Below the pieces are notes generated by a model. The model saw only the letters and a list, made by a program, of their open reading frames with translations. It was not told where the DNA came from and searched no databases. A DNA stretch of 64,000 nucleotides from Streptomyces coeruleorubidus (GTDB taxonomy: Bacteria; Actinomycetota; Actinomycetes; Streptomycetales; Streptomycetaceae). Positions 17,401-18,463 of this stretch are shown one piece after another. The DNA lies in NCBI RefSeq assembly GCF_008705135.1, contig NZ_CP023694.1, positions 3,825,001-3,889,000 on the forward strand, read 5' to 3'. Position 1 is the stretch's first letter, and the number at the start of each line of letters is the position of its first letter. The translations under genes and the position numbers were made by a program.

Positions 17401-17738
17401 GCCGAGATCTGCTATTGAGCCCCTTATTCACTCTGCGGAACCAAGGCCAAGCGGAAAGTGTTCAAATCACCATAAAACCTGACACACCGACGGAGCCCGC
17501 AGGGGCTCACGCCGTCCGCCGGACCCCTCGCAGACCTGTACGGAGAAGGACGCTCAGTGGTTCGATCTCGTTCCGACACGCACCTCGAAGCGAAACGGAT
17601 CACAGTCGGATCACGACTACGCAACGGGGTTTGCGCGCCCGGTTGGACGCCATGTGTCCCGGGCGCGGCATGAACAAACCTTTCATCTGAGTGAACGACC
17701 GGATGAGGTGAACCACATCCCACAGAGCGGGTGCCGAG

Positions 17739-17769
17739 TTGACAGTGAGGGTGTGAACCGGTGTCCTAG
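17739..17769 (+). promoter_or_regulatory. promoter for the leader peptide and cysteine dioxygenase
   Basis: A perfect TTGACA at 17739-17744 is followed after 19 bp by TCCTAG (17764-17769). The expected start point, about 6 nt downstream, coincides with the ATG at 17775, so the first ORF would be leaderless. Confidence 0.6.
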
Positions 17770-17774
17770 TGGGC

Positions 17775-17867
17775 ATGCTCGCGAACTTGGCACTCACCTC
17801 GACCCGCACCGCCGGGTCCCTCGGTGCTGCCCGCGCTCGCTGTAGCTGTTGCTGTTCCAGCTGTTGA
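17775..17867 (+). CDS. putative cysteine-rich leader peptide upstream of cysteine dioxygenase
   Basis: A 30-codon frame reading MLANLALTSTRTAGSLGAAR and ending ARCSCCCSSC. Five of the last eight codons are Cys, four of them the TGT codon that is rare in such GC-rich genomes. The ATG lies 6 bp after a -10-like TCCTAG and has no ribosome site, so it would be translated from a leaderless mRNA. Cys-rich leaderless leaders are known in mycobacteria, where they make translation of sulfur genes respond to cysteine supply; the same role here is inference. A stem-loop at 17888-17913 lies between its stop and the downstream start. The caution is that the stretch is a CTGTTG-like low-complexity sequence. 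Confidence 0.6.
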   Translation: MLANLALTSTRTAGSLGAARARCSCCCSSC

Positions 17868-17887
17868 GCTCCACCTGCTCCAGTTGA

Positions 17888-17913
17888 AGGCCGAGCCACC
17901 CGTCTCTCGGCTT
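17888..17913 (+). promoter_or_regulatory. stem-loop between leader peptide and cysteine dioxygenase
   Basis: AGGCCGAG (17888-17895) can pair with CTCGGCTT (17906-17913), 8 bp with one G-U pair and a 10-nt loop. It starts 20 nt after the leader stop codon and is a candidate attenuator or coupling structure. Confidence 0.5.
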
Positions 17914-17956
17914 CTGTTCCCTCTGACCTTCTTTCACTGAGGAACCACCACCACCC

Positions 17957-18463
17957 ATGAACAGCGACAGCGACCTCCAGATCGCCGGCGACATCCTCGA
18001 AGTCCCGCATCTGCTCCAGACCCCGCGCGAGCACCCGGCCACCGTCGCCGAGTTCGTCGGACTCGCCCGCTCCATCGCCGCCGACCGCTCCCAGTGGGAG
18101 CACCTCGTCCGGTACGACGCGACCAGCCGCTGGTACCACCGGCTGCGCACGGGCCCGGGCTACGAGGTGTGGCTGCTGTCCTGGGTGCCCGGACAGGGCA
18201 GCGGGCCGCACGACCACGGCCGCTCCTCCGGTGTGCTGACCGTGCTGGACGGCACGCTGACCGAGCGCACGGAGCGGGGCACACGCGCCTTGCGGGCAGG
18301 CGCGCAGCACGTTTTCGCGCCGGGGTACGTGCACGAAGTCCTGAACGACGCACTGGAGCCGGCGGTCAGCCTGCACGTCTACTACCCGGGCCTGACGGAG
18401 ATGCCGATGCACACGGCCCAGCACTGCGAGGCCCGGAGCGTGCCGGGCGTCGTGACCGCCTGA
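17957..18463 (+). CDS. cysteine dioxygenase
   Basis: A 168-residue cupin-fold, non-heme iron enzyme that oxidises L-cysteine to cysteine sulfinate, the first step of cysteine catabolism. The iron triad is visible as His85 and His87 (GPHDHG) and His126 (YVHEV); RTGPGYEVWLLSW carries the Arg expected to bind the substrate carboxylate. Length is close to other bacterial enzymes of the family. The ATG at 17957 has TGAGGAA upstream with a rather long spacer, consistent with regulated translation. It sits alone behind the Cys-rich leader; cofD follows after a repeat array. Confidence 0.92.
   Translation: MNSDSDLQIAGDILEVPHLLQTPREHPATVAEFVGLARSIAADRSQWEHLVRYDATSRWYHRLRTGPGYEVWLLSWVPGQGSGPHDHGRSSGVLTVLDGTLTERTERGTRALRAGAQHVFAPGYVHEVLNDALEPAVSLHVYYPGLTEMPMHTAQHCEARSVPGVVTA

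Follow-up and report, generated by a model that had tools for sequence, protein, structure and literature searches.

The locus described here raises the question of why a gene for a cysteine-degrading enzyme should be preceded by a short open reading frame (ORF) ending in cysteine codons, and whether that frame could control the gene. It lies in a stretch of 64,000 nucleotides of Streptomyces coeruleorubidus (the window, from whose first letter all positions are counted). A cysteine dioxygenase (CDO) family gene (17957..18463, + strand, start codon ATG at 17957) encodes a protein of 168 aa matching Pfam CDO_I (PF05995, E 1.6e-19). The protein also matches solved CDO structures; the best of these, 8qfr among them, carry the label cysteine dioxygenase and may act on ergothioneine. 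By eye, the active-site arginine is probably the one in Y-H-R. Upstream on the same strand, direct reading gave a leader ORF at 17775..17867 with its ATG at 17775, 30 codons and a TGA at 17865-17867. Its frame is MLANLALTSTRTAGSLGAARARCSCCCSSC and its C-terminus CSCCCSSC, encoded by TGT AGC TGT TGC TGT TCC AGC TGT (17841..17864, +). The first-pass annotation had described such a 30-codon frame with five Cys in its last eight codons, and the direct read confirmed it (four TGT, one TGC). A WhiB-family gene on the opposite strand lies upstream, and a CofD gene follows CDO. The two strands of the window contain 170 ORFs of 5-60 aa that start with ATG, and the leader is the sole one with at least five Cys in its last eight residues; since it is unique in this respect and conserved across the genus, it is not a chance frame. 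With a probability that we put at roughly 0.55, we infer, down to translation, sensing, output and sign, a leader that would sense charged tRNA-Cys through its Cys codons and control CDO.

For the comparison within Streptomyces, contigs were scanned with the CDO protein; the best 80 of at least 494 related stretches were taken, the window was added and one locus at a contig edge (L078) was dropped, giving a set of 80 loci that is biased toward close relatives because of this choice. All 80 testable loci carry the leader ORF upstream of CDO, with an ATG, a TGA, a length of 28-36 aa and 3-7 Cys. The alignment suggested earlier as a check on start, frame and C-terminal Cys run accordingly found all of them conserved in 80/80 loci. 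A sequence-only model of the leader region matched 186 of 199 Streptomyces genomes (E 0.01; a few marginal), adjacency of leader and CDO being confirmed for the fetched loci only and not for all 186; CDO itself was detected in 197 of the 199. Among 40 further loci, the majority of them divergent, a script found a Cys-tailed ORF in 39, the sole exception (L174) having a longer frame with three scattered Cys as seen by eye. Many species have a wholly different set of first 20 residues (e.g. MPATSAPLATRLRGFRSAVQARCCCCCSSC), yet the position of the ATG, the frame, the Cys tail and the TGA are kept. The 13 model-negative Streptomyces genomes comprise four with short or long Cys leaders (L085, L086, L093, L094), one with an ambiguous ORF upstream of CDO (L082), one without a CDO match, and seven in which no Cys-tailed ORF was found upstream of CDO (L087, L089, L090, L091, L092, L095, L096). 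TTGACA still stands shortly before CDO in L087, L090, L092 and L095, the four printed of these seven. At the level of the family, with Streptomyces counted in, matches to the model came from 41 of 121 genomes, spread over 5 of 17 genera, and the weakest of them were marginal. Judged from these comparisons, the leader ORF is real and conserved in most Streptomyces examined.

The constraint on the leader was assessed by codon position. Over codons 2-20, 79 close relatives differ by 0.086, 0.108 and 0.079 at codon positions 1, 2 and 3, with 10348 non-synonymous against 3674 synonymous codon differences summed over all pairs, while the same comparison of CDO gave 0.059, 0.061 and 0.22, the usual third-position excess. 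The synonymous drift that had been anticipated for the leader did not appear: its three codon positions diverge about equally and non-synonymous differences exceed synonymous ones. This equality implies that in close relatives the N-terminal part is held at the nucleotide level, and it implies no function of the peptide. Within this part, an inverted repeat GACCCG...CGGGTC (17801..17818, +) varies little or not at all in most of its columns, whichever the codon position. By this comparison, it is not the peptide that is conserved but nucleotides, frame and Cys codons. Leader Cys codons number 353 TGT to 74 TGC; for the CDO genes of these loci the figures are 0 and 83, and for five long window genes 2 and 14. 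A set of 144 distinct leaders (from 147; L109, the window locus repeated, and three identical segments were dropped), drawn only from loci with a Cys-tailed ORF, has 572 TGT and 149 TGC in the last ten codons. The final residue is Cys in 135 of them, and all 144 have 3-7 Cys within the last 14 residues, the set having been preselected for at least three. Gaps in the leader alignment are whole codons by eye, and whole Cys codons are gained and lost. Adjacent Cys codons alternate in these 144 leaders, 247 of 302 pairs being TGT-TGC or TGC-TGT, 52 TGT-TGT and 3 TGC-TGC, and the stop after the Cys run is TGA in 144/144.

Two alignments served for promoter and spacer, one of 56 rows (24 of the 80 loci dropped) and one of 27 of the 35 short-spacer loci (8 dropped). 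The -35 element TTGACA (17739..17744, +), read likewise in the first-pass annotation, is identical in all 56 rows. The -10 element given there, TCCTAG with a 19-bp spacer, is replaced here by TGTCCT (17762..17767, +; 17-bp spacer), which is preferred because bases 17762-17767 are invariant or nearly so and base 17768 varies among relatives (A, T or G in the 56-row alignment). TGTCCT is a weak match to TAnnnT, and a simple sigma-70 scan, which demands an A at -10 position 2, gave no promoter at the leader; the promoter is thus a likely one, assigned on conservation alone. The ATG follows TGTCCT after 7 nt and TCCTAG after 5 nt, in place of the 6 bp given before. From the first base of TTGAC to the ATG there are 36 nt in 76 of the 80 loci and 35 or 37 nt in the other four, a constancy that fits a transcript beginning at the ATG. 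The start codon is therefore probably at +1, in line with the leaderless reading proposed at first. Of a second group of 68 loci, most of them divergent, 57 have the last TTGAC 36-37 nt from the ATG; seven more have an extra TTGAC 8 nt before the ATG, three a distance of 30-31 nt, and one has no TTGAC. For S. lividans, the available part of a published study gives 17% leaderless transcripts and an average of 6.3 nt from the -10 element to the start. In the DNA that separates the divergently oriented WhiB-family gene from the CDO promoter, a block at 17660-17730 (AAACCTTTC ... GGATGAGGTGAACCACATCCCACA) is conserved in its -35-proximal part, and similar blocks are present in those species inspected that have lost the leader. 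The conserved block could possibly be an operator.

The spacer between leader and CDO measures 87 to 196 nt. A stem-loop had been reported there; pairing was indeed found, in the form of two hairpins, B and S, the latter involving the CDO Shine-Dalgarno (SD) stretch. Hairpin B (17889..17912, +; GGCCGAG/CTCGGCT, 17889-17895 with 17906-17912, then TCTGTT) is terminator-like and shows changes on both sides. In the alignment of 27 short-spacer relatives it holds all 12 cells with both-side changes, where 2.7 were expected from whole-structure shuffles, 0/500 of which were as high. A U-rich tail accompanies it in some of nine loci tried. No standard terminator was found in the window by a scanner, and by eye no hairpin B could be made out in the MPAT-type sequences inspected. 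Hairpin S (17916..17945, +; GTTCCCTC, 17916-17923, with GAGGAAC, 17939-17945) lies over the SD stretch; its cells are 95.8% paired in the 27 short-spacer relatives, with zero both-side changes and hence no covariation support.

A further candidate hairpin, H2 (17858..17886, +), pairs CAGCTG TT GAGC (17858-17869) with GCTCCAGTTG (17877-17886), spanning the last Cys codon and the stop. It is nearly invariant and 99.6% paired in the same 27 relatives. H2-like pairing was observed in 90/95 MLAN-type leaders (60.8 expected), 30/44 of MPAT type (32.6 expected) and 3/5 others (3.6 expected); H2 was rejected as a universal structure, being enriched over expectation in the MLAN type only. A cruder test placed 111 of 144 leaders under the shuffle mean, with p 0.05 or less in 19/144. 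H2 and hairpin B are adjacent and do not overlap, and no conserved alternative fold was noticed by eye. A post-stop motif GCTCC[AG]GC, here GCTCCAGT with a deviating final base (17877..17884, +), begins 9 nt past the stop and is able, as in H2, to base-pair with the last part of the Cys run. The full motif occurs no more than 45 nt past the stop in 79/95 MLAN-type, 34/44 MPAT-type and 3/5 other leaders, and exactly at +9 in 53, 28 and 0 of these (81/144 in all). The front edge of a terminating ribosome lies about where a motif at +9 begins. Other pairings were tried and rejected: one between GUUCC in the Cys run and GGAAC in the SD is, by eye, broken in many relatives, the post-stop motif forms about 4 pairs with the SD stretch and fails in many relatives (by eye), and an antiterminator made of leader CUCGG and the hairpin B 5' arm does not suit the many relatives that read CACGG.

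Folding of the 80 Streptomyces loci predicted that the CDO SD pairs mid-spacer (0.74) and hardly with the Cys run (0.01). With a masked ribosome, predicted SD access was 0.18 for a position at the first Cys and 0.21 for the stop, and 0.26 and 0.28 in 29 divergent loci (the MPAT group, whose leaders do not start with ML and in which a GAGGA[AC]C stretch and a start codon could be recognised). An earlier scoring of the 80 loci favoured the stop by more than 0.1 in 16 and the stall in 3. SD-access folding was set aside as evidence for the sign of control, since the first scoring gave a weak trend and the second almost no difference. In these models, ribosome position has no clear effect on the CDO ribosome binding site (RBS) in Streptomyces. 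In seven Ms5788A-leader loci of genus g6, by comparison, the SD is predicted to pair with the Cys run at a mean of 0.46, which fits the mycobacterial scheme, in which the SD pairs with the Cys run. As the Streptomyces SD pairs mid-spacer instead, the output step there looks different from the g6 and mycobacterial scheme, and termination is our best guess for it.

Cys leaders were also found before CDO-like genes elsewhere. Outside Streptomyces, 77 genomes had a CDO match, and the upstream DNA of 54 loci was examined by filter or by eye. A Cys-bearing candidate leader was present in 18 of the 54 (seven in g39, six in g6, and L132, L185, L193, L196 and L205), and by the filters used the other 36 had no Cys leader. 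Genus g39 has this CDO in 8 of 12 genomes, and seven share a promoter pattern. Its leaders (L136, L137, L178, L181, L183, L187, L189) read MRCCC, five codons, in 4/7 and MQSCR in one; the two others are of a longer HIDL type that resembles the Ms4527A family and scores under its cut-off. In all seven, an anti-SD CTCCGG complementary to the CDO RBS starts at most 1 nt from the stop, and folding of the free RNA gives GGAG no access. In g6, where Ms5788A leaders are present, all six CDO-like loci examined (L203, L208, L210, L211, L212, L216) have a short frame ending in CC and a few residues. These frames end ECCR or GCCG plus a few residues, and the three tried gave zero NCBIfam matches. Ten second or more distant Streptomyces CDO-like loci (L099-L108) include five with HVDL-motif leaders; two of these were scored, both above the cis_reg_atten cut-off. 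In two genomes (G049, with L105 and L086; G053, with L108 and L083) the second CDO-like gene has an HVDL-type leader, and two CDO-like genes in one genome can thus bear two unrelated Cys leaders. Since the g39, g6, HVDL-type and Streptomyces versions differ, Cys leaders on CDO genes arose or persisted in several forms.

In the mechanism proposed, the CDO transcript would begin at or beside the ATG of the short ORF, whose sole selected message would be the Cys codons ending at the stop. Ribosomes loading on the 5' end would translate the leader, and their dwell in the Cys run would be a readout of the supply of charged tRNA-Cys. Depending on where the ribosome stands, the RNA that follows, with its hairpins B and S and a spacer rich in C, poor in G and possibly bound by Rho, would behave differently, and CDO mRNA would be made or used to match. 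Under the ordinary sign, CDO would go up on Cys shortage in step with sulfur assimilation, and the role of the enzyme would then be sulfur or redox turnover, not mere disposal of excess cysteine. Given control of this kind, the ordinary sign is somewhat more likely than the inverted one. SCO3035 of S. coelicolor is taken here to be the present CDO from gene numbering beside whiB (SCO3034). In the available part of a published study of S. coelicolor treated with H2O2, SCO3035 rose 6.54-fold as one of 28 genes past the rise threshold, about half of them sulfur-assimilation genes or their neighbours, and the up-regulation was lost in an hbpS-senS-senR mutant. According to the accessible part of a report on strain KK, expression of the sulfate-assimilation genes was reduced at 24-48 h and variably raised at 96 h, with cysM unchanged, and both CDO genes stayed basal until 48 h and were up 21.65- and 6.36-fold at 96 h. 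The rise of CDO with cysteine-biosynthesis and sulfur genes in two transcriptomes speaks for the ordinary sign, or else for a transcription factor common to these genes.

The opposite sign had been the expectation of the first-pass annotation. Under inverted control, ample cysteine would bring the ribosome to the stop and switch CDO on, and a stall at the first Cys codon would keep it off. Such control would be sensible metabolically for a cysteine-degrading enzyme, and CDO genes are up 50.2- and 8.3-fold on cysteine-rich feather medium in strain SCUT-3 in the part of that report available, although feather and LB media differ far beyond cysteine. The g39 loci, with their anti-SD at most 1 nt from the stop, lean the same way in mean SD access over seven loci (0.26 at the stop, 0.18 at the first Cys), but a stall at the last Cys opens the SD nearly equally (0.24 against 0.26) and one g39 locus (L255) gains nothing at the stop. 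The first Streptomyces scoring (16/80 for the stop against 3/80 for the stall) agrees, the second being nearly flat (0.18 against 0.21). As no anatomy identified here enforces this sign in Streptomyces and CDO rises alongside cysteine-biosynthesis genes in two transcriptomes, as far as the available parts of these go, the expectation is unsupported and inverted control is held unlikely. It is doubtful to the same degree that a backwards leader, in which a free run through the Cys codons turns on a cysteine-destroying enzyme, operates while other Cys leaders of the same genome raise sulfur assimilation on shortage, a single signal then driving two opposed branches by nothing but ribosome speed. 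Rho-dependent attenuation of the TnaC kind, compatible with either sign, can be entertained tentatively, with slightly more readiness than inverted control: the C-rich, G-poor spacer would be a Rho loading site gated by a ribosome at or near the leader stop. Averaged over 80 loci, C:G is 2.09 in the spacer and 1.01 in the DNA that precedes the promoter, and C minus G of the window spacer is in the top 2% of the window's 89-nt stretches. The +9 motif in 81/144 leaders, near the front of a terminating ribosome, would suit it too. The published changes, in the parts of the sources at hand, are in mRNA level and not in translation alone. Skew by itself is nevertheless weak evidence, and the length of the spacer varies.

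It is improbable that the conserved feature is a promoter-proximal DNA or RNA element, with the ORF accidental and CDO under transcription factors only. All three codon positions are conserved over codons 2-20, a conserved block lies upstream of the -35 element, and induction in S. coelicolor needs a two-component system according to the available part of that study, all of which would agree with such an element. Divergent species, however, swap nucleotides yet keep the ATG position, frame, Cys tail and TGA, and whole Cys codons come and go. Still less probable is identity with the mycobacterial polycysteine system, the Cys run itself sequestering the CDO RBS. The layout is alike, a probably leaderless Cys-tailed ORF ahead of a cysteine-metabolism gene, and cysteine-dependent attenuation is described for M. 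smegmatis in the available parts of citing papers. Against this stand the SD-Cys run pairing of 0.46 in the seven g6 Ms5788A loci compared with 0.01 in the 80 Streptomyces loci, and the lack of a match of any NCBIfam leader model to the window leader or to three divergent Streptomyces-family leaders, the models NF042933 and NF042936 giving 0 matches for the window leader, one MPAT-type leader and the leaders of L241 and L093.

Returning to the Cys-codon leader as the favoured reading, an unannotated family across Streptomyces joins the few known cysteine-sensing leaders. If the inverted sign were true, ribosome speed alone could balance making against destroying one amino acid; if the ordinary sign is true, simple disposal is probably not what the enzyme does, and its substrate or role in Streptomyces merits renewed attention. 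With the divergent leaders and the anti-SD layout of g39, direct and cheap tests are at hand.

The closest known systems are the polycysteine leaderless short ORFs Ms5788A and Ms4527A, reportedly described in mycobacteria by Canestrari et al. 2020. Mycobacterial poly-Cys leaders are covered by NCBIfam models. The Streptomyces leader resembles them in being an ORF that is probably leaderless, to judge from the TTGAC-ATG spacing, in its Cys codons right before the stop and in the cysteine-metabolism gene that follows (CDO_I by Pfam). It differs from them in a peptide family without an NCBIfam match, in a downstream enzyme that oxidises cysteine, and in an SD predicted by folding to be held by a local mid-spacer hairpin instead of the Cys run. 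The tnaC leader of the E. coli tryptophanase operon stalls at its own stop on free tryptophan via the nascent peptide, with involvement of Rho. It, too, precedes a gene for the breakdown of the amino acid that is sensed, whereas the Streptomyces CDO leader has an unconserved peptide and many Cys codons. The cis_reg_atten 'putative leader peptide' family (NF042934, RRHVDL..R..SA.C type) also consists of short actinobacterial leaders; the CDO leader lacks its motif, falls below its cut-off and is not among its 11 matches in the same genome. Cis_reg_atten Cys leaders of this genome include L271 and L275 (at about 4443450 and 184590), followed by genes whose products resemble, on inspection by eye, a thiosulfate sulfurtransferase and a flavin reductase. 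The window leader had no match in NCBIfam, Pfam or Rfam (Rfam to E 1). Candidate cys leaders were described by Seliverstov et al. 2005 (PMC1262725) for Mycobacterium, Propionibacterium and Bifidobacterium cbs, with Rho suggested. These share the Cys-codon runs near the stop, but in the available part of that text they precede cys operons and cbs, no Streptomyces cys leader is named and the word dioxygenase is absent. A table of eight S. lividans leader peptides, in the part of its source available, has none for cysteine or CDO. Among the matches listed from the open-licence literature (titles and starts of abstracts), no leader on a CDO gene appeared, though Canestrari et al. 2020 may include a CDO-like locus. 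Set beside these systems, the Streptomyces leaders belong to a known kind but form a new family in it, and the gene they precede is an unexpected one.
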